31,872 bases of DNA from a virus. The stretch is taken from positions 1-31,872 of the IMG/VR virus record IMGVR_UViG_3300001460_008008. One strand, 5' to 3'. Of the stretch, positions 6,636-31,872 are shown piece after piece. A model generated the notes under the pieces. That model ran no database searches. It saw only the letters and a list, made by a program, of their open reading frames with translations, and was not told the origin of the DNA. Position 1 is the first letter of the stretch. Each line of letters begins with the position of its first letter. The translations under genes and the position numbers were made by a program.

Positions 6636-7006
6636 TTCTGCGAATCTCCTTTTTGAACCCTGTAAGAATCTTCCTCAAAATGCTGAGTGCTTACTTCAAA
6701 TACAGAAGATTCTTCTATAGCAATGAGTTTATGAGGTATACAAGGCTTTAAATGAATTGTCTCTCCAACCCGCAAGATCATTTCTTTTTCCTCGGCATTA
6801 CTCAAATCATAATATTTTAAAAGAAGTTTACCTTTTATTACGGCCCAAGTTTCTTCCTTCTTGATATGGTAGTGCATGGAGAACTCCGCTCCTTTATTAA
6901 ACTTTAGAATTTTTCCGCAATAAAGTTCGTTGTTCGTAATCCAGATCTCTTTACCCCAGCCCTTTGCATAAGTCTCAACAATACCTTTGATTGGCTCCAT
7001 GCTCAT
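6632..7006 (-). CDS. cupin, mannose-6-phosphate isomerase type II-like
   Basis: A 124-residue single-domain cupin. Motif 1 is MHYHIKKEETWAVIKG (two His and a Glu as metal ligands) and motif 2 is LKPCIPHKLIAI with a third His. The ending FEVSTQHFEEDSYRV is typical of the type II phosphomannose isomerase cupin group and small sugar-locus relatives. It is probably a metal-dependent sugar-phosphate isomerase or epimerase. It is first in the operon followed by heptose kinase, nucleotidyltransferase and phosphatase, so it may act on the same sugar; it could even stand in for the missing GmhA isomerase, but nothing proves that. Start ATG 7006 is 6 nt after a good promoter. Confidence 0.82.
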   Translation of the reverse strand: MSMEPIKGIVETYAKGWGKEIWITNNELYCGKILKFNKGAEFSMHYHIKKEETWAVIKGKLLLKYYDLSNAEEKEMILRVGETIHLKPCIPHKLIAIEESSVFEVSTQHFEEDSYRVQKGDSQK

Positions 7007-7012
7007 TAAGTA

Positions 7013-7040
7013 ATTTTAGCTAGAATACATGAAAATTCAA
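7013..7040 (-). promoter_or_regulatory. promoter of the heptose operon (7006 to 5108)
   Basis: TTGAAT (7035-7040), 16-nt spacer and TAAAAT (7013-7018) end 6 nt before the ATG at 7006. The element lies just downstream of the UUCG terminator, so this operon is insulated from the lysis-region transcript. Confidence 0.6.
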
Positions 7041-7051
7041 TAGCTAATCAT

Positions 7052-7080
7052 AAAAAAACCGTCCCGAAGGACGGCTTTTA
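7052..7080 (-). terminator. intrinsic terminator with UUCG tetraloop
   Basis: Read on the minus strand, CCGTCC-TTCG-GGACGG (7059-7074) is a 6-bp GC-rich stem closed by the very stable C(UUCG)G tetraloop. It is followed by a run of seven T. An A-run on the other side gives a shorter T-run on the plus strand, so it may also work weakly in that direction. It ends the minus-strand unit carrying lysis genes and precedes the heptose-operon promoter. Confidence 0.85.
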
Positions 7081-7102
7081 AATTATTTAAAATGATTTAT
7101 GT

Positions 7103-7207
7103 TTATTGCTGCTCTTTCCCCCTCTCCTTTCCTTTTACCTCGCCTTTATTAGAAATAGCTGAGTAACAAAAAAAAGATGAGATAGCTGACAATACAATTA
7201 TCCTCAC
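7103..7207 (-). CDS. possible secreted micropeptide, 34 aa
   Basis: A small open frame starting at GTG 7207 and ending with TAA at 7103. The product begins MRIIVLSAISSFFCYSAIS, a short hydrophobic segment with a Cys like a signal peptide or lipoprotein leader, and then changes abruptly to a very basic, Lys/Gly/Glu-rich tail. It lies 32 nt after the membrane protein gene at 7240-7440 and just before the UUCG terminator, so it would be the last gene of the lysis-region transcript. There is no Shine-Dalgarno and the Cys context is not a canonical lipobox. It may be a lysis accessory peptide or a chance frame. Confidence 0.35.
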   Translation of the reverse strand: MRIIVLSAISSFFCYSAISNKGEVKGKERGKEQQ

Positions 7208-7239
7208 GGTTTAATCACATAAATTATGATGCGTTATTT

Positions 7240-19483: not shown

Positions 19484-20504
19484 ACGAAAAAGACGGACAA
19501 CCAGAATATTTTTTCTTCTCGATATGTGTGCCTACTCCTTCGTCAAGCATGACTTGTAAATCTTCTTTTACATAAGATGACTTGATGAACTTATCTTTTC
19601 CCCCAAGCAGGTGATAATAATCGAATGGAAACTTGAATGGACAGTGCCACATCAAATCTCCATTCTTTTTCAATTGCCCTACATGAGTAGCTCTACCACA
19701 AACAATTTTACCAGCGAACCCGTCTTCCTTTGCTGGATAACCCTTGTCCCAAGCAAGACCGCTAACCGCAGTCTTTTCACTGAAGTTGTTGATTACCTGC
19801 TGAACATCCGTCAAAAAATATTCAAAACCTTCTAAGTCTAGTTCATCTAACGGCTCCATAGCCATAAGACCTTCCGCATTTAAGTCGAACTTTAAGAATA
19901 AGAACTCCATGCGCCTCTTCAGGTATTCTGGATACAAATATTTAACAGCAAGGCAATACATATAATCCTGCATGTTGTCTGTATACTCCTTACCTTCGAA
20001 AACATTTTTAGAGGTTTTAAAGTCTCGGATTATAGCTGTTTTTTTTCTTTTAAAGAGGAATAGCTTATCTATAAACCCTAGTATCCGATAATTCTTATCT
20101 CCTTCATCTACAGATATATCGAAATCTTTCTCAGAGATAGCTTCTGTAGGTTTCCCCTCTGTATCCCCAAAGAAGTCAAAATTCAAACCCTCAACTGTCA
20201 TCTTATTGATTAGGTCCATATTCTCAAAGTCGTCTATCTCATACTTTTTAGCATAAGCTTCGACCATCCTCTTAATAGGAGAGCTAACATTTATATCTTG
20301 AGCTTTAATAATAGCCCTATAATGCTTCCTATGTCTAGGGTTACCTAAGTTCTCAAAAATAGCATGACAGATTGTCCCACGCAAAGATCCATGATTAGAT
20401 TTGTCTGGTAGACGCAAATGATACTTAGCCCAATATTGCCAAGTGCAAGTCTGCATTGTTTTAATGCGTGAGGCTGACAGAGGCTTGTTTTCAGATTTCT
20501 CCAT
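19458..20504 (-). CDS. PD-(D/E)XK exonuclease, Cas4/RecB-nuclease-like
   Basis: A 348-residue protein from ATG 20504; in-frame upstream starts lie inside the primase gene. LSASRIKTMQTC near the N-terminus and RGTICHAIFENLG are typical of RecB/AddB-type nucleases. GFIDKLF (143-149) and IRDFKTSK (159-166) supply the acidic and Asp-x-Lys catalytic residues. Cys20 and Cys269, Cys288 and Cys336 are spaced like the one-plus-three cysteines of iron-sulfur nucleases (Cas4, AddB), which is suggestive only. It likely resects or processes DNA ends in recombination-dependent replication. It overlaps the primase gene by 14 nt and precedes the replicase promoter. Confidence 0.82.
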   Translation of the reverse strand: MEKSENKPLSASRIKTMQTCTWQYWAKYHLRLPDKSNHGSLRGTICHAIFENLGNPRHRKHYRAIIKAQDINVSSPIKRMVEAYAKKYEIDDFENMDLINKMTVEGLNFDFFGDTEGKPTEAISEKDFDISVDEGDKNYRILGFIDKLFLFKRKKTAIIRDFKTSKNVFEGKEYTDNMQDYMYCLAVKYLYPEYLKRRMEFLFLKFDLNAEGLMAMEPLDELDLEGFEYFLTDVQQVINNFSEKTAVSGLAWDKGYPAKEDGFAGKIVCGRATHVGQLKKNGDLMWHCPFKFPFDYYHLLGGKDKFIKSSYVKEDLQVMLDEGVGTHIEKKKYSGCPSFSFDSPSDLL

Positions 20505-21540
20505 AATGGAAGTCGTATTTTTTTTCGAACTTCCGTAAATTAGAAGTAAATGTTTTATTGACCCCACGTTTATTCATCTCTTTGGCAAAATCAATAACGT
20601 TGGCTATTGTTTCATTATGCTTAATTGATGCACAATATTCAACATATTTGTTTATTTGGTCTTTATCCATGTCTCCGAAATCATTTTCTGGAGGTGGAGA
20701 AAAAAATACTTTATCAAAATCAATTTGATCGCAGAGCTTGAATATAGACTTAATTGAACCTTCAAATCCCCTGTTAGAACCTGAATTAAAATCATTATTA
20801 AATGCAATAAAAATTTTATCTAAGGGCAAGCCATGCAACTTAGATATGAACTTAGGTGAAATATTAAGACCGAAAGAAACAAGAACATTTTTGATTCCAG
20901 CATCAAATAATGAAATACAATCTCCAATCGATTCTACAACATAAACACTGCGACTTTCTTCAATAGCAGTTCGAACTTTGTCAATCGTATAATATGGATA
21001 AAACCAATCAGAACACCTCCCATTGTGCAACCATTTAGGTCTAGGGTCATCCGTTACCTTTCGGCCCGAAAAGCCATGTATCCTCCCGTCAGGGCGGCAA
21101 ATGGGGAATATGACTCGCTGATACATTTTTCCAGACATTGCCAATCCGCACTTGAACTTCTTCAAAGTGTCTTCTGATATCCCCCTATTCAAATAAAAGT
21201 CATAATGGGGTAGCAAGCGATTTAAACAAGAATCTGGATATGTTTTTTCTTCATTCAAAAGTTTTTTTTGAGCAGAGCGTTCATATATATTTACACTATT
21301 ACTCTTTAGGTAAGAGCTTAAAATACTTTTGTCATTAGTATTTAAAGTTTTCTGAAGTAAGGCTTCAAAGGGGAGAAACATAGAGTCTTCCACATAATCT
21401 TTCCAAACCCCAGTATCTTTATAAATCTGTAGTGCTGTAGAATTATCACCAGACCTATATACAGCGCTAGTTCTCCAATAAGAGCCATGATCTTTTAGTC
21501 GATAACCAAGATCTTCTAAAACAGATTTGTAATCGGTCAT
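20491..21540 (-). CDS. DnaG-type primase with TOPRIM domain
   Basis: A 349-residue primase-like protein. The N-terminal region (TALQIYKDTGVWKDYVED) matches the zinc-domain area of DnaG-like primases but has no Cys/His zinc ligands. A middle block (YLNRGISEDTLKKFKCGLA, VIFPICRPDGRIHGFSGRK) matches the RNA-polymerase-like part. The TOPRIM core has VVESIGD (Glu203, Asp207), but its DxD motif reads FNND (247-250), with Asn for the first Asp. It makes RNA primers for the helicase-primase complex encoded with the DnaB gene upstream. ATG 21540 overlaps the helicase stop (ATGA). Confidence 0.82.
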   Translation of the reverse strand: MTDYKSVLEDLGYRLKDHGSYWRTSAVYRSGDNSTALQIYKDTGVWKDYVEDSMFLPFEALLQKTLNTNDKSILSSYLKSNSVNIYERSAQKKLLNEEKTYPDSCLNRLLPHYDFYLNRGISEDTLKKFKCGLAMSGKMYQRVIFPICRPDGRIHGFSGRKVTDDPRPKWLHNGRCSDWFYPYYTIDKVRTAIEESRSVYVVESIGDCISLFDAGIKNVLVSFGLNISPKFISKLHGLPLDKIFIAFNNDFNSGSNRGFEGSIKSIFKLCDQIDFDKVFFSPPPENDFGDMDKDQINKYVEYCASIKHNETIANVIDFAKEMNKRGVNKTFTSNLRKFEKKYDFHYGEI

Positions 21541-23087
21541 TGCGAAAGACTGATTGGGATGTCATCACTTTCGTTGCTAGACTCCAAATTAACATCAACG
21601 TTATTAATAGAATTAACAATATCCTGAAGGTCTCCGCGCTCTTCGATTCTAAAGTTTTGAATATTCAAGTTTATAAAATTCTTGCGATTAGAGCCATCTG
21701 GCATTTCTATGGGATTAATGTCACGAAGAGGGTTTTTACCTAGATGACGAGCTTTAAGATTTACTAGCTTGTGAGTTCCGAATCGATCTCCATCTTCATG
21801 AATTTCATCTGGAACTTTCCTCCTCAATAAAAACAGATGAGAACAGAATTGAGTGATCCCATCAGAAAGAGAGACCACACTTTCATTATCGACTATCGAA
21901 TCTGTTCCCCTGTTACCCGTAATCCCAAGTCTATTTGCTTGAACAGAAGTCATCATTGAAACGCAGGGCTTGCCATCAAAACACAAATCCCTATGGATAG
22001 TTTGCTTGAACAAGTGAACCATCAAAGAAACTTGCTGCCAACCAGAATCGTTTTTGCCAACGCTATTAAAGTCTGTCTTGATATAATCAAAACTAAAAAT
22101 CATTTTATTACCCCTGCCAACTTTAGAGTAGTAATACCTTTTTAGATAAGAGCACATTTCTTCAGCAGACATACCAGCAACATTCACATAATAAAACTGC
22201 ATATTACCAGACTTTATCTTATCCCAAGTTTGACGAACCTTTGCTACAACCTCTTCAACAGACCAATTCTTATAACTAGAAGTCCTCCACTTCCCACTTT
22301 GCAAGAGGTAAACAGGTATGCCGCTCATTGCAGAACATTGACGAAAAATAAGCTCCTCTTCACTCATTTCACCATTGTCAAAATGTAAGACAGGAATATT
22401 GTATTTAGCTCCAGTTCTTATTGTGTAATCCATGCAGAACTGAGTCTTTCCCACGCCAGAACGAGCAACAATAACAGAGATGTTTCCCTCTAAAAGTAAA
22501 GATCCGTAAATCTCGTTTATTCTTTCATGTGGCCCCATTAATCCAGATTCTTCAATAGGATTATTTCCCCTATCTTCAACCAAATCTTCCATCATATCAA
22601 AAAGATTAATTGGCCCATCATCAGTAAACTCAAAATCTTTAATATTTTTGTTATAAATCTCGTCAGCTTTATCTATAATTTCTGAATATTTTATATCAGG
22701 ATCGACCTTTTTGACATAAGAAGCTACGTCCCTTGCGGAGCGATAGATCTCTCTACGAGCAGAGAACTTTTTCAATTCCTTTACTGAAGAAATAAAGATA
22801 TCTTCAGTAATCTTATGGTAAACAAGGGATCGGATGTATTCTGGCAGGTCAATACTGTCTGGGAAACTAACCTTTAGTTGCTCCAATCTTGGAATAAGAA
22901 TAGTGTCATCAATTGACTCCATATTATTCAATGCATTGCGGATCAATTTAAAAATAGAAAGATGAACCTGAGAGTCTTCACTAAAGAAATCTTTCTCATT
23001 GAGAAACACTGAAACTTCAGCCCACTTGTGAGGGTGCTGGAGAAGACCCTTTAATACAGTCTTCTCTAGATCCATGCTAGATATCAT
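21537..23087 (-). CDS. dnaB: DnaB-like replicative helicase
   Basis: A 516-residue RecA-fold helicase. Residues 1-110 match the DnaB N-terminal all-alpha domain. Walker A is ARSGVGKT (208-215), the catalytic-Glu region is NGEMSEEE (238-245), Walker B is MIFSFDYIK (329-337), and VSMMTSVQANR forms motif H4. It unwinds the replication fork 5'-3' and interacts with the primase encoded directly downstream (ATGA overlap). It starts with ATG 23087 behind the best Shine-Dalgarno in the window (AGGGAGGTG, 4 nt away), located within the end of the upstream gene, so high translation is expected. Confidence 0.92.
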   Translation of the reverse strand: MISSMDLEKTVLKGLLQHPHKWAEVSVFLNEKDFFSEDSQVHLSIFKLIRNALNNMESIDDTILIPRLEQLKVSFPDSIDLPEYIRSLVYHKITEDIFISSVKELKKFSARREIYRSARDVASYVKKVDPDIKYSEIIDKADEIYNKNIKDFEFTDDGPINLFDMMEDLVEDRGNNPIEESGLMGPHERINEIYGSLLLEGNISVIVARSGVGKTQFCMDYTIRTGAKYNIPVLHFDNGEMSEEELIFRQCSAMSGIPVYLLQSGKWRTSSYKNWSVEEVVAKVRQTWDKIKSGNMQFYYVNVAGMSAEEMCSYLKRYYYSKVGRGNKMIFSFDYIKTDFNSVGKNDSGWQQVSLMVHLFKQTIHRDLCFDGKPCVSMMTSVQANRLGITGNRGTDSIVDNESVVSLSDGITQFCSHLFLLRRKVPDEIHEDGDRFGTHKLVNLKARHLGKNPLRDINPIEMPDGSNRKNFINLNIQNFRIEERGDLQDIVNSINNVDVNLESSNESDDIPISLSQ

Positions 23088-23305
23088 CGAGCACCTCCCT
23101 CGTCCAAAGAAATTTCGACCAACTTACTCAAAGCCATATCGACACAAGTATTTTCTGTCTTGGTTGCAAAAGTAGGTTGACCCACATCATTAATATAATA
23201 AAGGAAGAATCCCTTGTTTCCTCCGCTCTCAGAACCCGTGCAATCAAAAAGCTTCGTTAGAATGCTTATAGGTAACGTATTATCCGTTTTGTCAAAATTG
23301 TTCAT
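23084..23305 (-). CDS. hypothetical protein, 73 aa
   Basis: A 73-residue protein of unknown function starting at ATG 23305. It looks like a small alpha/beta protein (ISILTKLFDCTG, GGNKGFFLYYINDVGQPTF, CVDMALSKLVEISLDEGG). Both ends overlap neighbours: ATGA with the endonuclease upstream and ATGA with the helicase downstream. Its last codons contain the helicase Shine-Dalgarno. Its place between recombination and helicase genes suggests a helicase loader or accessory protein, but no motif supports this. Confidence 0.68.
   Translation of the reverse strand: MNNFDKTDNTLPISILTKLFDCTGSESGGNKGFFLYYINDVGQPTFATKTENTCVDMALSKLVEISLDEGGAR
23092..23100 (-). promoter_or_regulatory. strong Shine-Dalgarno of the helicase gene
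   Basis: AGGGAGGTG on the minus strand ends 4 nt before ATG 23087. It sits inside the last codons of the 23084-23305 gene (coding Gly-Gly-Ala-Arg), so the C-terminus of that protein is partly set by this signal. Confidence 0.8.
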
Positions 23306-23709
23306 ATAATGTCTAATGCTCTTAGAAGCTCCTCGTCAATGGTATCCCTTTCCAATATTCTGACAAGCTTAATTTGGTTAATTTCACAAAAATACTCCTT
23401 TTTCTCATCTCTCTGCAACTGAGAAAGGAAATTTTGCCTAGAGTTTGAGTGGAAGAACTTGTTGTATTTGTAATGTTGATTGCCATCCACCTCTACTGCA
23501 AGTTTTTTATTTGCGTTGTAAAAGTCTAATGTCATTCGTGTCCCAAGAACGGGAAGCTCCTCGAAAACAACATCAGAAACCCAATTTGAGTATAAGAGAT
23601 CTTTAACTTTTTTTTGAAGCTTACTCCGACACTTTTTGTCCCAATCAATTAAATACTTTGTAGAGTTTTTGAGCTTTTGTTCCCGACCAGTTGTCGTTAA
23701 AAAGATCAT
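23302..23709 (-). CDS. endonuclease-like protein, DUF559/DUF2726-type PD-(D/E)XK
   Basis: A 135-residue nuclease-fold protein. Glu50, Asp62 (TLDFYNANKK) and LAVEVDGNQHY (70-80, Glu73 and a following Asp-Gly-x-Gln-His) are arranged as in the small Vsr/DUF559-like endonucleases. A downstream RDEKKEYFCEINQIKLVRI provides the usual helix and strand. It may be a nickase or resolvase-type enzyme in recombination or packaging. It overlaps RecA (ATGA) and the 73-residue gene (ATGA) and is transcribed between them. No DNA-binding domain beyond the fold is visible. Confidence 0.75.
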   Translation of the reverse strand: MIFLTTTGREQKLKNSTKYLIDWDKKCRSKLQKKVKDLLYSNWVSDVVFEELPVLGTRMTLDFYNANKKLAVEVDGNQHYKYNKFFHSNSRQNFLSQLQRDEKKEYFCEINQIKLVRILERDTIDEELLRALDII

Positions 23710-24833
23710 GCGAAAACGTTTTCAGCAATAAATAAGTGCATTGCTTTTGTCACCTCTTCGTTGCTCTCCAAGAGATCATACAAAGCTTTCATTCCTTGAT
23801 ACTTCTCCTGAAGTTCAATGCCTCTATCGCCAAGATATTTGATCAACTCCTCATCAAACTTAAACCAAGAAGCTGACTTCTCAATAAAGTTCCACATTAG
23901 AAGCATTTCAATAATCTCACGCTCAATCCAAATAGACTTTCCATCAGATCGACCATGCTTAATTGGATAGCGGATACGCATTCCCGTGCTCTCATTCGTA
24001 GACTTTTGAATATGAACCTTGGCATAATGCCCAATGATTGGATTCTCTGGGCTTGGCCTTGCCTTTTGGTCTTGCAAGATCAAGTCGGCCTGATTTCTCT
24101 TTTCGAAGTTAATGATCCAGTCTGGATAGTGAAGTGCTGCATTGCCACCGCTAGAATTGGTTTGGTTGTTTGGATCACTAGCTGCATACTGACTCGTCTT
24201 AATAGTTGACCGAACCTGAGAGATCATAATGCACATGTGACCAAATTTACCCATCCCAAGACTAACTCGCTTTAAGAAATCTGAAGTTAAAGATGCACCT
24301 GCTGCAACTTTTGCTGCGTCACTGGTAGTCTTCTCTAGGTCAGATTTAGGAATCAAGCCATCCATACTGTCGATGACAATGCAAAATTTTTCTTTATCTG
24401 GGTTATTCTTTAGTAGTTCTCTAAGACCATCGAAAACTACATCATAAATATTGCACTCCCAAACAAGGCAAGTGCCGACTTCCCAGTCTTCTGGGTCAGT
24501 CACAAACTTCAATCCAGAACGCTTTTGGATGTCTCCTGATAGGCGACCCTCTGCTTTAATATAAAGACCCTTGGTTTTCTCTACTGTCTCAAGCATGTTC
24601 TTCATAACATGAAGAGCCTCGTTTGTTTTACCTCCTTCATTGCAGCCGATAAAACGCTGCAAACCAGCTCCAAGACCACCACCAATAAACTGGTCTAAAA
24701 TCAAAGAACCAGTCGAAACTATATAAGGCTTCGCAGTATCTTCATAATTGTAATGAAACTCTTTGTTACTCTTAAAAAACTTCGACATAAATTGCGAAGT
24801 GCCGATTGTTTCTTTTGCGCTTTTCTTACTCAT
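23706..24833 (-). CDS. recA: RecA-like recombinase
   Basis: A 375-residue RecA/UvsX-class protein. Walker A is GCNEGGKT (63-70), the catalytic Glu lies in KAEGRL (93-98), Walker B is CIVIDSMDG (151-159), and SQVRST (205-210) is the Gln-containing switch motif. The variable-looking L1/L2 loops and the Asn-rich TNSSGGNAALHYPDW stretch fit a DNA-binding loop. It catalyses strand exchange for recombination-dependent replication and repair. ATG 24833 overlaps the upstream zinc protein by 8 nt, and the stop overlaps the endonuclease start. Walker A differs from the cellular GPESSGKT, as is common in phage versions. Confidence 0.92.
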   Translation of the reverse strand: MSKKSAKETIGTSQFMSKFFKSNKEFHYNYEDTAKPYIVSTGSLILDQFIGGGLGAGLQRFIGCNEGGKTNEALHVMKNMLETVEKTKGLYIKAEGRLSGDIQKRSGLKFVTDPEDWEVGTCLVWECNIYDVVFDGLRELLKNNPDKEKFCIVIDSMDGLIPKSDLEKTTSDAAKVAAGASLTSDFLKRVSLGMGKFGHMCIMISQVRSTIKTSQYAASDPNNQTNSSGGNAALHYPDWIINFEKRNQADLILQDQKARPSPENPIIGHYAKVHIQKSTNESTGMRIRYPIKHGRSDGKSIWIEREIIEMLLMWNFIEKSASWFKFDEELIKYLGDRGIELQEKYQGMKALYDLLESNEEVTKAMHLFIAENVFA

Positions 24834-25272
24834 CTAAAAAATCTCTCAGGGTTTTTCTTTTTTCGATCAATCTATCTTCTCCGCATTTAAGCCTATGGTC
24901 AACCATTTTTTCGGAGTTTTTTGGCTTGTAGTAAAATTCTCTGAGCTTCTTGTCTAAGTATTCCAATCCATCTTTGGTTAAAAAATATTTTATTGAACCA
25001 TCGAACTTAAACGGAGGCTTAACCTTCAACAAAAAATCAGCATCATTTTCAAAGCGCTTGAAAACCTTCGTAGCTGTGATCATATCCAGCTTGTAATTCG
25101 TTGAAGGCTGATTATTCAGCATCTTCTTTATAAACTGCTGCCTCTCTCTAAAATAAGTAGGCTTTTTGGGTGTTTTTTTGTGGTTTTTAAATATAAACCC
25201 ACACTCACACTCTAAAGCTCGGCTAGAACACAAAGAAGAACACTTTGGACATTCTTTTTTACCCCTTGGCAT
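24826..25272 (-). CDS. zinc-finger protein upstream of recA, 148 aa
   Basis: A 148-residue protein. Its N-terminus holds a compact zinc motif: Cys8-PK-Cys11 and Cys22-E-Cys24 with Cys15 between (CPKCSSLCSS, ECECGFIF). A very basic linker and a C-terminal winged-helix-like region (SIKYFLTKDGLEYLDKKLRE) follow. It probably binds DNA or RNA and may regulate this replication operon or act with RecA. It is the first gene of the replication unit, starting 6 nt after a promoter-like element, and overlaps recA by 8 nt. The family is not recognised. Confidence 0.75.
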   Translation of the reverse strand: MPRGKKECPKCSSLCSSRALECECGFIFKNHKKTPKKPTYFRERQQFIKKMLNNQPSTNYKLDMITATKVFKRFENDADFLLKVKPPFKFDGSIKYFLTKDGLEYLDKKLREFYYKPKNSEKMVDHRLKCGEDRLIEKRKTLRDFLDE

Positions 25273-25278
25273 AAAGGT

Positions 25279-25307
25279 ATCCTAACATGCATTCATATCG
25301 TTTGCAA
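25279..25307 (-). promoter_or_regulatory. promoter of the RecA-helicase-primase unit
   Basis: TTGCAA (25302-25307), 17-nt spacer and TAGGAT (25279-25284) end 6 nt before ATG 25272. The element overlaps the last codons of the GMD gene. It is weaker in consensus than the others but has the same geometry. Confidence 0.5.
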
Positions 25308-26310
25308 CCATTTTTCTCACCAAGCCTAAAAAATCTGTTTTTGGAGACCAACCCAACTCTCTTCTAGCTAAGTCAGAATCTCCCAAAAGCAACTCTACTT
25401 CAGCAGGGCGATAAAAAGCTGGACTAATCTGGACTAAGATCTTGTCTTCATGGTAATACTTCTCGTTAACACTATAGCCATCCCATCGACATTGATCTTT
25501 AGCAAATCCTGCAAAATTGAAAGCCTCCTCAACAAATTCTCTAATCGAGTGTGTTTCGTCTGAAGACAAGACATATTCTTTTGGATGCTCTTGGTTGAGC
25601 ATCAACCAAACACCTTCAACAAAATCTTCAGCATCGCTCCAATCTCGCTTGGCATCTACATTACCTAACTCAAGAGGCATAAAATCGCCACTAGGGTATT
25701 CCTTTTGAATACGAGATACATTTTTGGTAATCTTACGAGTTACAAACTCTTCTCCGCGACGAGTTCCTTCATGGTTGAATAACCATCCTTGAATAGCAAA
25801 CAAATGATAGGAATCTCTCCATACTTTTACCATGTGCCTCGCACTAGCCTTAGAAACACCATAAGGGCTTCTTGGTCGCAACGGATGAAGTTCTGACTGT
25901 GGAGAATGTAAAACGTCTCCAAACTCCTCTGAGGAGCCAGCGTTGTAATAACGGCATTTAGGACAATGCTTGCGAATTGCCTCAAGCTGATACATTACAG
26001 CCATAGCATTTGTGTTCATGTGGTTTGCTGGTTGGGTCCAACTAACCCCCACAAAAGAATTAGCCGCAAAATTAATAAAATAATCTGGCTTCTCTTTAGA
26101 GATAACCTCTTCTGTATTTACAGAATCAGTAACATCTAAGTCAATGAGTTTAAAGCGTGGATTATCTACCAGATGAGCAATATTGCTATGATTTTTGACA
26201 CTTAAACGCCGAACTCCAGCGATAATAGTGTGCTCAGTATTCTTCAGAAGATAGTCAGCCATGAAGCTGCCATCTTGACCTGTTACTCCTGTAATAATAA
26301 CTTTTTTCAT
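25282..26310 (-). CDS. gmd: GDP-mannose 4,6-dehydratase
   Basis: A 342-residue extended short-chain dehydrogenase, full length for GMD. TGVTGQDGSF (7-16) binds NADP. AGSSEEFG (124-131) and Tyr150-x3-Lys154 (SPYGVSK) are catalytic, and NHEGTRRGEEFVTRKI, LGNVDAKRDWSDAEDF and YRPAEVELLLGD are hallmark GMD blocks. It converts GDP-mannose to GDP-4-keto-6-deoxymannose, precursor of GDP-fucose, rhamnose, perosamine and related sugars. It is last in the glycan operon, overlapping the epimerase-type gene by ATGA. No GMER or other 4-keto-converting gene is obvious, so the host or the neighbouring SDR may finish the sugar. Confidence 0.93.
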   Translation of the reverse strand: MKKVIITGVTGQDGSFMADYLLKNTEHTIIAGVRRLSVKNHSNIAHLVDNPRFKLIDLDVTDSVNTEEVISKEKPDYFINFAANSFVGVSWTQPANHMNTNAMAVMYQLEAIRKHCPKCRYYNAGSSEEFGDVLHSPQSELHPLRPRSPYGVSKASARHMVKVWRDSYHLFAIQGWLFNHEGTRRGEEFVTRKITKNVSRIQKEYPSGDFMPLELGNVDAKRDWSDAEDFVEGVWLMLNQEHPKEYVLSSDETHSIREFVEEAFNFAGFAKDQCRWDGYSVNEKYYHEDKILVQISPAFYRPAEVELLLGDSDLARRELGWSPKTDFLGLVRKMVANDMNAC

Positions 26311-27143
26311 CTATTTTTTATCCAATCAATTAAATTTTTAGTTGGCTCCCAGCCCAAAAGGTCTTTTGCTAAGACTGAATTACAAAGAGTATCTTGAGCT
26401 TCACCCATCCTATCGCCATGATAGTTAATTTTTTTTTCGCCATACATTTCCGAAACCTCCTTTACAGAGTGATTATCTCCTCTACCTAATTCAAATAAAT
26501 TTCCAAAAGATTTTTCCTCAAAAATTAAAATCAAAGCATCGACAATATCATCTACATGAGTGAAATCTCTACGTTTTGATCCATCTCCATAAATATTAAA
26601 TGCCATACCCTCTCTGTAAGCTTTGTCCCAAATACCAATTAAAGTTGCTGCTCCTTCCTCTAATTGATGAGGTCCGTATACATTATAAAACCTTGCGGTG
26701 CTTGCTTGTATATTAAATAGTTTTTGATAAAGTTCAACCGTTTCTTCAGACAAATCTTTTGTGAATGTGTATGGATTTTTAAATTTACCTGAATGGTGAG
26801 AAGAACTCCCAGCAAAAATTAGTGGGATATTATTGGACCTACAATATTCGCAAACATTAAATGTTGCAATCACGTTGTTTTTTGCATATAAAACTGGATC
26901 TTTAAATGAGGGTTGGATTCTAGCTGAAGCAGCCAAGTGATAAACTATATCAACATCTTCCTCAATGTTTTCTAGGGGGTATTCTAAAATGTCAGCATTA
27001 ATGTAATTAACACCAGAAATTTCATTTTCTTTTTTACCAGTAGAGTAATTATCTATGCTTACAACATCATGGCCATATTCCAATAATCTTTTGCAAAGAT
27101 TATAACCTACAAATCCCGCTCCTCCTGTAACTAATATTTTCAT
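26307..27143 (-). CDS. NAD-dependent sugar epimerase/dehydratase
   Basis: A 278-residue extended SDR of the UDP-glucose 4-epimerase/GMER-like group. GGAGFVG (7-13) binds NAD, catalytic Tyr125-x3-Lys129 lies in NPYTFTKD, and RFYNVYGPHQ is conserved. The active-site block AGSSSHHSGK differs from the usual SSAAVYG-type pattern, so the substrate may be unusual. Next to GMD, it could process the 4-keto-6-deoxy product, but that is an inference. It is coupled by ATGA overlaps to the GT2 gene upstream and to GMD downstream. Confidence 0.87.
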   Translation of the reverse strand: MKILVTGGAGFVGYNLCKRLLEYGHDVVSIDNYSTGKKENEISGVNYINADILEYPLENIEEDVDIVYHLAASARIQPSFKDPVLYAKNNVIATFNVCEYCRSNNIPLIFAGSSSHHSGKFKNPYTFTKDLSEETVELYQKLFNIQASTARFYNVYGPHQLEEGAATLIGIWDKAYREGMAFNIYGDGSKRRDFTHVDDIVDALILIFEEKSFGNLFELGRGDNHSVKEVSEMYGEKKINYHGDRMGEAQDTLCNSVLAKDLLGWEPTKNLIDWIKNR

Positions 27144-28309
27144 TTGTTTTTAGATTGAAAGTCTTGGATATCATCAATAATAATTATTAAGTTACCCACT
27201 TTGTAATGACCAAGCAAATTATTGGAAGATATAGCTGAACTTAGATTTTTTATTAAGTTGAAATCTTTCTGATCAAAGTTTCTCCCGTCAACATAAACCG
27301 TTACCTGATGATAATTAAACTCTGTTATTTTTTTAATTCTGCTATCCAAATTAAATAATGTTTTGTCGCAGTTTTCTGAAACATAACTTTTTACATTCTC
27401 AGAGCTACAATCTTGATAAATTACATCACAAACAGGCTCAAGATGATAAAGAAGAGTTGGATTGCAGTATTTACAAACAATAGCTACGTCATATTTAGGG
27501 AAAATAATCGGACTCAAATATTGATCTAGTAAAACATCAGTCCCCCATTTTCTAAAGAAGTTTCTCTCATTTTTGTGGTTTGTTTTTTGCCACTCTGGAG
27601 AATCTACCCCTGTATCACCACCAGAGATTTTGTTAAACCTACTGCCTCTAGAGGTGAAATGATAAACTAATCCATCCCAAGTTTGAATCAATTCATATCC
27701 ATTAATAACAAACCTATAAAAAAGATCGGAATCTTCCCTGCTTTGAGGAGCGAACAATTCATCATGTCCACCTATGCTCAAAAAATCTTCTTTATACATG
27801 CACCAAGGAGCGAACATTCCATTAGTCGTTTCGGAATCAGGCTTTTTCTGGTAATCATTTTTACACCAATCCACAAACTTATCATAATCAAAGTCTTTCA
27901 CTTCTGAACCTAGATCAACTAAAACTTTTGATTGGTGATCTGGGTGAATGGGAGGCTCTAATCTAGTAGCGCAAACAACCTTCCTTTTATCTAAATGTTT
28001 TAATATTTGATAATCTAAGTCGGGAGCAGCAACCATATCAGCATGAAAAGCCATGATTATATCTGTTGGGGCCATAGCTATCCCCTTGTCGAACATACCA
28101 ACAATACCGACTCTTTCTGGTCCAGAATTTTTATAACAATGAAGTCTTTCATCATCCAATGAATCTAACCATTCTGAAGTTCCATCTGAAGAAGCGTCAT
28201 CCAAAATTAAAATATGGTGAGAACCCTCCAATTTCTTTAAAGAATTGTAACATATTTTTAAGAATTCTAAATTATTTCTAGCTGGGATTACAAAAGTAAT
28301 AGCTCTCAT
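27140..28309 (-). CDS. glycosyltransferase family 2, 389 aa
   Basis: A GT-A enzyme. It has the N-terminal TFVIPARNNLEFLKICY, then ILDDASSDGTSEWLDS (35-50) and MAFHADMVAAPDLDY (about 90-104, the metal-binding Asp region). WCMYKEDFLSIGGHDELF followed by REDSDLFYRF is the typical acceptor-side motif. The C-terminal ~110 residues (from about 280) are a separate, Asn/Asp-rich domain I cannot assign. It likely adds one sugar to the operon's glycan. ATG 28309 lies just beyond the methyltransferase stop; its stop overlaps the epimerase gene. Confidence 0.86.
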   Translation of the reverse strand: MRAITFVIPARNNLEFLKICYNSLKKLEGSHHILILDDASSDGTSEWLDSLDDERLHCYKNSGPERVGIVGMFDKGIAMAPTDIIMAFHADMVAAPDLDYQILKHLDKRKVVCATRLEPPIHPDHQSKVLVDLGSEVKDFDYDKFVDWCKNDYQKKPDSETTNGMFAPWCMYKEDFLSIGGHDELFAPQSREDSDLFYRFVINGYELIQTWDGLVYHFTSRGSRFNKISGGDTGVDSPEWQKTNHKNERNFFRKWGTDVLLDQYLSPIIFPKYDVAIVCKYCNPTLLYHLEPVCDVIYQDCSSENVKSYVSENCDKTLFNLDSRIKKITEFNYHQVTVYVDGRNFDQKDFNLIKNLSSAISSNNLLGHYKVGNLIIIIDDIQDFQSKNK

Positions 28310-28310
28310 A

Positions 28311-28952
28311 TTATTTTTTAAGGTTAATTAAGAAAAAGAAAACTCTACAATTATTAAGATCATTTGTAATGTCTGTCCCATACTGATTTCTAGAATTCAA
28401 CAATAATTCTTGTAAACCAAATCCTGATATTTTAGAGTCTGGAAAGTTTTTTGTTAGAATTTCTATCATCTCCTTTGAGTCGTATTCATATAAGTGAGTT
28501 CCTCCATCATACTCCCAAGTAGGGGTTAATCTTCTTGGAGTAGTTATAATTATTGTTTTTTCCGTAACAAATTTTAAGGACTGTAAATATTGATCTATTT
28601 TTTCTGGAGGAAGATGTTCAAATGTTTCTATCGAAGTGCATACATCAAATTCATTCTCTTCAAATTCATCTTTCAAATTGAAAATATCGCAAGTTAAAAA
28701 ATGAACATTATCTCTTCCGAACCTGCTCTGACTTTCTTTGATTGAATCTTCATCTATGTCAATCCCTGTAACAGACTTTGCGCCAAGAGAATAAAGGATC
28801 ATAGCTCCATATCCTCTACCAGTAGCTGCATCTAAAACTTTCTGACCCTTCGTCCAATAGTCAGCTATCACATAACGATCAATCATGGTTGAGGTTGCAG
28901 GATTTTTGAGTCTGTTTATCTCTTCAAGAGTGTGATTATCTGTAGTTTTCAT
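28311..28952 (-). CDS. SAM-dependent methyltransferase
   Basis: A 213-residue class I methyltransferase. KVLDAATGRGYGAMIL (38-53) is the SAM-binding glycine loop, GIDIDEDS (63-70) the acidic strand that holds the ribose, and FDVCTSIETFEHL motif III/IV. It most resembles small-molecule or sugar methyltransferases of glycan loci, so it may O-methylate a sugar or glycan terminus, or act in capsule-chain capping. It overlaps the deacetylase-like gene upstream by one base (TAATG at 28952). The substrate is unknown. Confidence 0.85.
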   Translation of the reverse strand: MKTTDNHTLEEINRLKNPATSTMIDRYVIADYWTKGQKVLDAATGRGYGAMILYSLGAKSVTGIDIDEDSIKESQSRFGRDNVHFLTCDIFNLKDEFEENEFDVCTSIETFEHLPPEKIDQYLQSLKFVTEKTIIITTPRRLTPTWEYDGGTHLYEYDSKEMIEILTKNFPDSKISGFGLQELLLNSRNQYGTDITNDLNNCRVFFFLINLKK

Positions 28953-29641
28953 TAAATTAAATCTTCAAAATTTTTAAAAGTAACTTTATATTTGTCAAGA
29001 AGAATCTTCAAAGTATTTTTGAAATGAGTGTAATTTGACAAGTCCCAAACATTTTTATTAAATTTGCCTGATATGTGCGACTGAAAGTAAATAAACTTAT
29101 CATCTACAATGGACTGCTCCTTACTTGTGATGCAGGTATTGTTCGCAAACAGTTTACAGTCTTCTCTAAAGTGGATGTTTTTATTAGTTAACTCGTGGAT
29201 TGCTAAATACTTGAATTTTTCTTGTGCTGCATAAAAAGACCCTTGAGTAGCATTCCATCCACACATCCTCCATCCTAATGGATGAACATCAACAGAATCC
29301 CATTCAATTAGACAATCATTCAATCTTTTCTGAGATTCATAATAATCTAAATCCAAGAATTCATTTTCTCTACAGTAATTAGGATTAGTATATGGCCTAC
29401 AGTGAGTGTGGCCATGACCAGCAAATTCTATCCAATCTTGATCTTTCCAAAACTTAACCCAATCTTTATGTTTCGAAAGGGGGTATAATCCTTGGTAATT
29501 AGAGGGCGTAAACAAAACGAATTTACATCCAAACTCCTCATTTAAAAGTTGAATATATTTAGTGCATTCGTCATTAGGTAATCCCCAACCTTCTTCTGGA
29601 TGAAGGTCGTCAATTGCTATTACTATATCTAAACTTTTCAT
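28952..29641 (-). CDS. polysaccharide deacetylase-like protein
   Basis: A 229-residue protein of the carbohydrate esterase 4/DUF2334-like fold. IAIDDLHPEEGWG (8-20) gives the paired aspartates. AGHGHTH (74-80) supplies the metal-binding histidines, and LGWRMCGWNAT (122-132) matches the motif that carries Arg/Trp in NodB enzymes. It may remove acetyl groups from a glycan or sugar nucleotide. It is preceded by a transferase gene overlapping by 32 nt and followed by the methyltransferase. The family is divergent, so activity is uncertain. Confidence 0.75.
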   Translation of the reverse strand: MKSLDIVIAIDDLHPEEGWGLPNDECTKYIQLLNEEFGCKFVLFTPSNYQGLYPLSKHKDWVKFWKDQDWIEFAGHGHTHCRPYTNPNYCRENEFLDLDYYESQKRLNDCLIEWDSVDVHPLGWRMCGWNATQGSFYAAQEKFKYLAIHELTNKNIHFREDCKLFANNTCITSKEQSIVDDKFIYFQSHISGKFNKNVWDLSNYTHFKNTLKILLDKYKVTFKNFEDLI

Positions 29642-30575
29642 AAAATCTTTTTAAAAATATTTCTTCTGAATATTCTTTTTTATACAATTGTTTTGTTTCC
29701 TTTGAGCAATGATTGTAAAAATCACTATCACTAAATAATTTTTCCATTAGCTTACGAGCCTTTTCTAAATCTCCATCTTCTACAGATAAACTTGGGTGTA
29801 GCTTTCTTTGAGTATCTAAATAAGAATACGCTATACATGGTATACCTAAGTAAGAACAATTTAAAGAAAAAGTTCCTGCGGCAAAGGTTCTCATCAAATG
29901 GATTGAATATTTTCTCTTTGATAATTCAAACATCCAATTAGACCAATTTGTATAATCAATATGAGTTAAATTTTTTATTTTTGTCTCATCTTCTTTAAAC
30001 CTACTTCCGCGACCCATAGTTGGTGCATATAATTCTTCGCTAAACTTCGATGCAATAGCAAAAGAGTCAATACCTCCATACCAACTTGAACAATTACCTC
30101 CCAACATAACTCCAGACCTTTTATTCTCTGGGTGCAAATCTTTAATTGCGTCTTCAATCATTAACGATTGAAAAGTTTTTATGGATTTATTTGGGAAAAT
30201 TCCTTTGTAATATTTTACATCTGATTCATTATGAGTAAATATAACGTCAGCTTCTGCCAAGTTATTAAGGTAGTGTAGTTGATCGTTAATTGAGTAATCT
30301 TGGAAATACCAAAATGGTCCTTCCTGCATAACTATTATGATCTTGCAAAATTTTTTAATTTCAGAGATTTTAAAGATGGAAGGATTTTTTTTAGATAAAA
30401 TAACTATCCCAATGTCATAATGTCCATAAAGAGAATTATATTTTTCAAAAGGTGGGTTAAAAACATGAGCATTTAAAGAACAGGCCCAAGCCAAATCTGT
30501 TCTAATATTTGGATGTTCTCTACTAACCATATATGGAGCTGTAGAGTCTCCCTCTTGGAAAAAAGCCACCTTCAT
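29610..30575 (-). CDS. GT-B-type glycosyltransferase (group 1-like)
   Basis: A 321-residue protein with two Rossmann-like halves. N-terminal strands include VAFFQEG and IGIVILSKKNP; the hinge has IVMQEGPFWYFQDYS; the C-terminal half has SWMFELSKRKYSIH-type helices and a nucleotide-sugar site like AGTFSLNCSYLGIPCIAY. This resembles group 1 (GT4-like) transferases, though no textbook E-x7-E was found, so the call is moderate. It starts with ATG 30575, one base after the stop of the GT2 gene upstream, and overlaps the deacetylase gene by 32 nt. Confidence 0.68.
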   Translation of the reverse strand: MKVAFFQEGDSTAPYMVSREHPNIRTDLAWACSLNAHVFNPPFEKYNSLYGHYDIGIVILSKKNPSIFKISEIKKFCKIIIVMQEGPFWYFQDYSINDQLHYLNNLAEADVIFTHNESDVKYYKGIFPNKSIKTFQSLMIEDAIKDLHPENKRSGVMLGGNCSSWYGGIDSFAIASKFSEELYAPTMGRGSRFKEDETKIKNLTHIDYTNWSNWMFELSKRKYSIHLMRTFAAGTFSLNCSYLGIPCIAYSYLDTQRKLHPSLSVEDGDLEKARKLMEKLFSDSDFYNHCSKETKQLYKKEYSEEIFLKRFYEKFRYSNSN

Positions 30576-30576
30576 T

Positions 30577-31188
30577 TTAAATTGTATCGTATAAATTATT
30601 TTGACGCTCTTGCTTTTTGATATCTTTTACATGAAGAATACAAAAATGCTCAATAGGTTCACTAGATAATTTAACTTGATTCTTCGCTCCCGCTAAGACC
30701 TCATGAACTTTATTCTGCCACTTAACATGACCTTTAGTGGAAACAAAACGAGATTGAAAATCAGGAAATCCCTCCCAACCCATTTTGTTTATTTCCCAGT
30801 TGTATTTTTTGATATGTTCTTCTGTCGCCCCACGAACGACATTGATCCTTGGAATCCAAAGCAGATCAATATCTCCTTTTTGCACTACTGCCCTTAATGC
30901 ATTCAATAATGAAGGTGGTATTTGTTCATCAGCATCAATCTGCATCAAATAGTCTTTTGTAGATAACTCAAATAAAGTATTTTTAAAAGCAGAAAAATCT
31001 TTCTGAAAGTCAAAGTAGTTTATTTTCAACCCGCAAAGCTTACAAAAATCTTCGATATCTTTAGTTACTTTGTTCTGATCTGCCAAGATGACAATCTCCT
31101 CATCTGGTAAAACATATGGTTCAAGTGAATTAATTAATCTTTTAAATTCAAAAAACTCGTCTGCTACCGTTATCCCGTAAGTAATCAT
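30577..31188 (-). CDS. glycosyltransferase family 2, 203 aa
   Basis: A 203-residue GT-A domain from ATG 31188. MITYGITVADEFFEFKRL is the first strand, YLMQIDADEQIP (80-91) carries the DxD metal site, and FPDFQSRFVSTKGHVKWQN with EVLAG is the C-terminal acceptor region, resembling LPS-core beta-transferases. It is the first gene of the glycan operon. Its start follows AAGGAG at 7 nt, but that Shine-Dalgarno is also the 3' arm of an intrinsic terminator (31189-31226), so translation from a readthrough mRNA would be masked. A GTG at 31239 is a less likely alternative start, since it lies upstream of the terminator. Confidence 0.86.
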   Translation of the reverse strand: MITYGITVADEFFEFKRLINSLEPYVLPDEEIVILADQNKVTKDIEDFCKLCGLKINYFDFQKDFSAFKNTLFELSTKDYLMQIDADEQIPPSLLNALRAVVQKGDIDLLWIPRINVVRGATEEHIKKYNWEINKMGWEGFPDFQSRFVSTKGHVKWQNKVHEVLAGAKNQVKLSSEPIEHFCILHVKDIKKQERQNNLYDTI

Positions 31189-31226
31189 AAAAAAACTCCT
31201 TCTAGGTAAGCACAACCTAGAAGGAG
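31189..31226 (-). terminator. terminator whose 3' arm carries the SD of the next gene
   Basis: On the minus strand CTCCTTCTAGGT pairs perfectly over 12 bp with ACCTAGAAGGAG (loop TGTGCTT, 7 nt), followed by seven T. The next base is the A of ATG 31188. The final AAGGAG of the stem is a consensus Shine-Dalgarno 7 nt before the ATG. The hairpin ends the hsp20 transcript and at the same time could sequester the ribosome site of the glycan operon's first gene. Confidence 0.88.
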
Positions 31227-31248
31227 CGATATAAGTCACTTCAAAGTT

Positions 31249-31674
31249 TTACTTAACTTCAATCATTATGTCTTTTTTCTCCTCTTTTTCAAGAGGTATT
31301 TTAACTCTCAGTAGGCCATTTTTATATTCTGCCTGAATGGAGTCTTTATCAACGTTCTGGTGCAAGGTAAAGTGCTTCTTGACAGATCGTCGAGATATTT
31401 TTCTATGGTAGAATTCAGCATCATCGTCTTTTTGCTGAGATCCCGCCTCAATCTTCAAGGTCTGTCCAGATACAGATACGGAAATATCTTCCTGATCTAA
31501 TCCGACTAATGCAAACTCAAGAATAAAATTACCATCCTTGTCTTTGTAAGCATCGTAAGGCTCTGAGCCTGAATACAGTGGAGCATTAGCTTCGTTAGCC
31601 AATAACTGCATACGTTTAAAGATATCTCCCTCGAAAACCAAGGGAGCCAACATTTTGTTTATCATCATTGTCAT
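31249..31674 (-). CDS. hsp20: Hsp20/alpha-crystallin small heat-shock protein
   Basis: A 141-residue small chaperone from ATG 31674; a TTG start at 31737 would add 21 residues. The alpha-crystallin domain includes YDAYKDKDGNFILEFALVG, ISVSVSGQTLKIEAG and the A/G-x-L-type motif KNGLLRVKIPL, and it ends IMIEV, an I-x-I-like C-terminal anchor. It holds unfolding proteins; marine phages often carry such genes, possibly for virion assembly. A terminator follows its stop. A 33-residue acidic gene precedes it. No signal of a heat-shock promoter was seen. Confidence 0.9.
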   Translation of the reverse strand: MTMMINKMLAPLVFEGDIFKRMQLLANEANAPLYSGSEPYDAYKDKDGNFILEFALVGLDQEDISVSVSGQTLKIEAGSQQKDDDAEFYHRKISRRSVKKHFTLHQNVDKDSIQAEYKNGLLRVKIPLEKEEKKDIMIEVK

Positions 31675-31752
31675 ACTACTATTTTTAGTTAGTTTTGTTT
31701 TTCTAGCCCCATTTGGGTGCTGGAAATTCTCAGACAATAGAGATATACTAAA

Positions 31753-31854
31753 TCAATCCTCTTCTAATTGAGCTTCGTCAATACGATCTAGTATAAATGC
31801 TATTGTTTCGTCGAGTTCTACCTCGTCTGTAAAATTAATTTCTGGTTCGGTCAT
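31753..31854 (-). CDS. acidic micropeptide, 33 aa
   Basis: A short frame starting at ATG 31854 and ending with TGA at 31753. The product (MTEPEINFTDEVELDETIA, then FILDRIDEAQLEED) is acidic and helical, with no Cys or membrane segment. TATACA lies 7 nt before its ATG, the same geometry as the other promoters here, which supports expression; the -35 region is outside the window. It may be the first gene of the hsp20 transcript. Function unknown; chance cannot be excluded at this length. Confidence 0.45.
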   Translation of the reverse strand: MTEPEINFTDEVELDETIAFILDRIDEAQLEED

Positions 31855-31872
31855 AGTGCATGTATATACACA

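Follow-up and report, generated by a model that had tools for sequence, protein, structure and literature searches.

T4-type phages carry mobile cassettes of a promoter and a stem-loop at the borders of exchanged genes. Other stem-loops in this group hide ribosome sites, as described for T4 genes e, soc, 49, I-TevI and segB and for Aeh1 mobE (PMC2988022, PMC3014915). The hairpin of gene e has a pair of late promoters (TATAAATA) in its 5′ part, and late RNA is made without the 5′ strand (PMC3014915); both TATAAATA boxes are evident in T4 DNA, in the 5′ arm region of gene e. Here, we relate these systems to a hairpin between hsp20 and a set of glycan genes in an uncultured marine phage, taken from an IMG/VR virus record and analysed over its whole stretch of 31,872 nt (the window).

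The phage is distant from those in culture. A DNA-level search with the window gave no match to cultured phages, and its replication proteins (a DnaE-like polymerase, DnaB-like helicase, UvsX-like recombinase and Clp-like ATPase) are about 20–35% identical to those of cultured phages where compared. The nearest annotated Hsp20 proteins are those of Pelagibacter phages (32–33% identity), and IMG/VR contigs hold relatives with Hsp20 proteins 66–99% identical to that of the window. No relatives of this hsp20 were found in GTDB genomes, which therefore give no clue to the host, and a search for HSP70 in six contigs gave no match.

An earlier note on this DNA had placed a perfect 12-bp stem with a U7 tail at 31189–31226 and had read AAGGAG, the last six bases of its 3′ arm, as a perfect ribosome site hidden in read-through RNA. 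The hairpin, here called P2, is indeed present on the minus strand, which reads G CTCCTTCTAGGT TGTGCTT ACCTAGAAGGAG TTTTTTT ATG; its perfect stem has 12 bp, or 13 bp counting the closing G·U, and AAGGAG ends exactly 7 nt from the glycosyltransferase ATG (31188–31186, minus strand), as claimed. For the surrounding 76-nt region the computed folding energy is −25.3 kcal/mol, whereas shuffled versions average −12.2 (z −5.5), and not one of 200 shuffles matched its stability. Read-through RNA is predicted to fold, with AAGGAG paired inside the P2 helix and the AUG outside the 12-bp stem. P2 itself (ΔG −21.1 kcal/mol in the window) runs directly into T7, giving the stable hairpin and U-rich tract of an intrinsic terminator, and in a terminator scan of positions 20000–31872 it ranked first as the strongest terminator-like site. 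It lies between hsp20 (PF00011) and the first glycan gene (PF00535), and the statement that the hsp20 unit closes with a terminator-like hairpin is supported. Rfam 15, applied to the whole window at gathering threshold, returned no match. The features of the locus are collected in Table 1.

Table 1. Features at the hsp20–glycan gene junction of the window
Feature	Position	Strand	Description and basis
hsp20	31249..31674	−	141 aa counted from the ATG; TAA stop codon, 31251–31249; PF00011 E 2.9e-19; phrog_432
Candidate sigma70-like promoter TTGAAA-N16-CATAAT	31265..31292	−	In hsp20 3′ end; 10/12 matches; weak
Hairpin P1	31241..31262	−	8 bp; last Lys codon and stop codon of hsp20 in loop; RNA folds, covarying pairs
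Linker between P1 and P2	31228..31240	−	Consensus AGTGAYTTRTATC; conserved in all homologs having the element
Hairpin P2	31195..31227	−	12–13 bp stem, 7-nt loop; fold and covariation; stem as in the earlier note
P2 5′ arm	31226–31215 (31227–31215 with closing G·U)	−	
P2 loop	31214–31208	−	7 nt
P2 3′ arm	31207–31196 (31207–31195 with closing G·U)	−	
AAGGAG	31201–31196	−	SD-like end of P2 3′ arm; sequence; absent in four divergent homologs
T7 tract	31195–31189	−	Terminator tail and spacer to ATG; T6–8 in all homologs having the element
First glycan-cassette gene	30577..31188	−	GT2-family glycosyltransferase, 203 aa; PF00535 E 1.2e-5
Glycan cassette	25282..31188	−	Glycosyltransferases, methyltransferase, epimerase, GDP-mannose 4,6-dehydratase; Pfam matches

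P2 resembles intrinsic (Rho-independent) terminators in its 12–13 bp hairpin, the T6–8 that follows directly, its position after the hsp20 stop codon and its conserved pairing. Judged on sequence, it is probably such a terminator, closing the core nrd-hsp20 unit at the left border of a hypervariable glycan cassette and serving as a constitutive attenuator. Unlike ordinary intrinsic terminators, its 3′ arm ends in an SD-like hexamer, its T-run abuts the next start codon, and it is preceded by an invariant linker and a second covarying hairpin, P1. Some of these features speak against a terminator and nothing else: termination does not require an ATG directly at the T-run, as found in eight unrelated first genes, nor does it need the linker and P1.

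Conservation across related hsp20 loci is what selection on a terminator at a gene end would be expected to leave. P2, a T-run of 6–8 and an immediate ATG are kept in 22 of 23 such loci (21 of the 22 in a first set, plus L233), although many of the contigs are near-duplicates and represent about 14 distinct sequences, related and few. Wherever the element occurs, the stem has a ΔG of about −18 to −22 kcal/mol and the T-run is present at a length of 6–8. In the aligned set, 99.6% of cells in the P1 and P2 helices are paired, and this fraction drops to 35–64% in slid-alignment controls; double-sided changes affect four pairs (six cells), and the covariation score was reached by 0 of 500 shuffles. 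In P2, a T-A pair has become C-G with pairing kept in L008, and L017 and L021 have jointly lost one pair (CTCCTTC/GAAGGAG to CCCTTC/GAAGGG); one P1 position varies through A-U, G-U, G-C and C-G, with changes on both sides. A covariance model searched against 49 sources (about 564 kb) found strong matches at hsp20 junctions only, the next matches having E values of about 0.01 or worse. In L012, the single exception, a different long hairpin takes the place of the element, and the next ATG lies about 100 nt away without an SD; having a hairpin behind hsp20 thus seems to count for more than having an SD before the glycan gene. Whether homologous loci keep the pairing was a check proposed with the switch idea, and they do; the pattern named as its refutation, a lost stem with SD and T-run retained, is the opposite of what we see, namely stem and T-run retained with AAGGAG lost in four relatives.

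More distant hsp20 homologs on other IMG/VR contigs (L235–L249; 32–35% identity) carry different conserved hairpins after the stop codon, of the type ATTCCTTTTAGTAGGGGAAT followed by a G+C-rich stem. As these downstream hairpins are unrelated, the loci were left out of the comparison.

The genes behind the element are not constant. At least eight unrelated kinds of gene come first: a GT2 glycosyltransferase in window-type loci, an FkbM-type methyltransferase in L005, a group 1 glycosyltransferase in L011 and L017, another methyltransferase in L013, and unrelated genes in L016, L021, L022 and L233. Conversely, the glycosyltransferase of the window lacks the hairpin where it occurs at internal positions, both in L035–L043 and as the second gene in L005. 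Because the downstream genes differ and the glycosyltransferase is found elsewhere without a hairpin, the element belongs to hsp20, and whichever gene comes first has its start codon abutting it. P2 sits exactly between the conserved nrd-hsp20 genes and the exchanged ones, as would be expected if the element were kept chiefly as shared DNA at which relatives swap glycan cassettes, in the manner of the T4-type stem-loop cassettes. We regard this as very improbable: the covariation in both hairpins shows that what is selected is pairing in the RNA and not identity of the DNA. The likeness to the T4-type cassettes is that of a stem-loop bordering exchanged genes; P2 differs from them in that no promoter of their kind was found and in that it stays with hsp20. 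Two further observations concern these loci. L004 and L015 are two hsp20 loci near opposite ends of one 118-kb contig (IMGVR_UViG_3300028197_001695) with different cassettes behind them, and this contig may have been assembled from two strains, as a chimera or by overlap. L017 (366–956, minus strand) and L021 (263–862, minus strand) encode a protein of 196–199 aa divergent from nrdB, whose C-terminus resembles a sigma-70 family factor by eye, with no such match in Pfam.

The claim of a perfect ribosome site fares less well. We counted SD 4-mers at −18 to −4 against a control region at −42 to −28 in 361 genes of the window and five relatives, and found them at background (13.0% versus 13.6%). 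The same pipeline gave 81% versus 8% for T4, 62% versus 22% for Pelagibacter phage HTVC115P and 5% versus 12% for Cellulophaga phage phi19:1. SD motifs were scarcest where they would be needed most, in genes whose start lies free in an intergenic region (0 of 29, and 6% of 96). The hexamer itself is not conserved: the arm reads AAGGGT in L017, L021 and L022 and GAGGGT in L233. These sequences retain a weakened SD core, and all four loci keep the stem and the T-run. None of the other terminators of these phages has an SD arm. Outside the hsp20 junction, nine strong SD hexamers occur in the lineage, all in 4-nt ATGA gene overlaps, and SD pairing may therefore function in the host. In addition, the distance from arm to ATG stays at 6–8 nt ahead of the eight unrelated first genes, which fits an SD at 5–9 nt and speaks somewhat for a role in initiation. 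On balance, we take AAGGAG to be chiefly the purine strand of the terminator stem, and it may have a minor role in initiation when the stem opens.

In many genes of these phages, a box GTGTAA[TC] lies 7–11 nt (mostly 8–10) before the ATG, as at the minus-strand starts 862, 9899, 12314 and others in the window and in L167–L185. At 6–11 nt before ORF starts, TGTAAY was found at 35 sites, compared with 2–13 for permuted hexamers. If this box is a −10 element, the messages would be leaderless or nearly so, which would fit the lack of SD sites in the lineage.

Read as a translational switch of the T4 gene e, soc or I-TevI type, the junction would hide its SD in read-through RNA and free it either through transcripts that start inside the hairpin or through a factor that opens the stem, thereby timing the glycan genes. 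Like the T4 and Aeh1 hairpins, P2 is stable, lies directly ahead of the AUG and carries an SD-like sequence in its 3′ arm, here ideally spaced; these precedents, the conserved pairing and the constant distance to eight unrelated genes all argue for such a device. Neither TATAAAT nor a lineage-type TGTAAY box was found within 110 nt before the ATG, and hence no recognisable RNA start within the hairpin; unlike gene e with its two TATAAATA boxes, P2 has no late promoter in or beside its 5′ arm that would omit this arm from the RNA. The linker, which precedes the arm on its 5′ side, contains a conserved TTRTAT that might represent a degenerate −10 box but matches one at just 3–4 of 6 positions. 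The only fair sigma70-like site lies further upstream (Table 1), and its RNA would include all of P2. P2 further differs from the gene e-type hairpins in that its T-run would make it a terminator and in that its lineage hardly uses SD sites, so that genes translated from SD sites, a mark of the T4 systems, are not what we find here. We consider a switch of this type unlikely. The earlier interpretation is partly supported: the pairing that it relied on is conserved and the motif spacing is right, whereas SD motifs at background level, the loss of AAGGAG in four relatives, the lack of a recognisable start box within 110 nt before the ATG and an element that goes with hsp20 rather than the glycan genes leave its switch or timing device weak.

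Two other routes of control were considered and set aside. The window has an open frame that would allow in-frame read-through from hsp20 to the gene behind it, but this frame is not conserved, since T-run length varies from 6 to 8 across homologs. A search by eye of the upstream sequence for an antiterminator partner of the P2 5′ arm gave just 4-nt matches, such as GAAG/CUUC, which are lost in L233.

P1 does not figure in the earlier note. It is predicted by RNA folding in 13 of 14 distinct homologs, and its conservation is plain. The 13-nt linker AGTGAYTTRTATC that joins it to P2 is near-invariant and predicted to be unpaired, and in six contigs searched it is present at the hsp20 junction only. 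An unpaired, seed-like linker between two covarying hairpins, followed by a U6–8 tail, would suit a 3′-UTR-derived small RNA or leader, comprising P1, linker and terminator, that is cut from the 3′ end of hsp20 or started within it, the glycan genes being incidental. TTGAAA-N16-CATAAT just upstream is a candidate promoter for it. Its expected start, near 31258 and upstream of P2, would nevertheless fall within P1 and break it, although this start was also placed upstream of P1 as a whole, and Rfam holds no match; such an RNA seems improbable. Most homologs have TATAAT at the candidate promoter, where synonymous conservation is not exceptional, being high throughout hsp20. The hsp20 gene also has a possible alternative upstream start, TTG at 31737. 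It is quite doubtful, but conceivable, that P1, linker and P2 together form a regulatory RNA in a leaderless or non-SD phage lineage. Any glycan cassette plugged in behind this RNA would then be expressed depending on whether hsp20 is translated or on a linker-binding factor.

To see how unusual the layout is, we scanned IMG/VR for exact occurrences of AAGGAGTTTTTTTATG; the matches listed first, which are not a census, gave at least 91 distinct sites with enough upstream sequence. Among 91 listed sites, the stem reached at least 8 bp in 35 and at least 11 bp in 27, while mononucleotide shuffles of the upstream sequence predict 2.9 and 0.16, respectively. Since 35 of 91 far exceeds 2.9, an SD-like hairpin arm before a T-run and ATG has thus arisen many times. 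These AAGGAG-T7-ATG hairpins share the SD-like 3′ arm, the T-run and the ATG with P2, and differ from it in having unrelated stems and genes. Within the window, a GCCGTCC-TTCG-GGACGG hairpin on the minus strand (about 7006–7239) is also followed by T7 and an ATG, but its frame stops after four codons, and it is a chance case of terminator, T-run and ATG. A terminator with an SD-like arm is accordingly the more familiar side of the locus, with ribosome-site hiding known from T4 (PMC2988022, PMC3014915) and a layout that recurs widely; less expected are the covarying hairpin at a stop codon and a lineage that makes so little use of SD sites.

Returning to the terminator reading, what the analysis shows is the sequence itself, a conserved pairing, a constant T-run and an exchange of the genes downstream; termination, read-through and attenuation are inferred. 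Most polymerases would halt in the T-run, and the glycan cassette would be transcribed by the minority that pass the leaky terminator, amounting to constitutive attenuation. In the read-through RNA, the hairpin would end 6–8 nt before the AUG and would be expected to lower initiation at the first cassette gene. Conservation shows P1 and the linker to be parts of the same hsp20 3′ element as P2.

For the biology of these phages, the locus indicates that a conserved terminator stem can yield, as a by-product, what looks like a perfect Shine-Dalgarno site where the phage hardly uses SD sites. It also presents a conserved RNA border behind which phages swap sugar-modifying genes. Were the switch to prove true, this border would act as a standard socket by which the dose of exchangeable surface genes is set.
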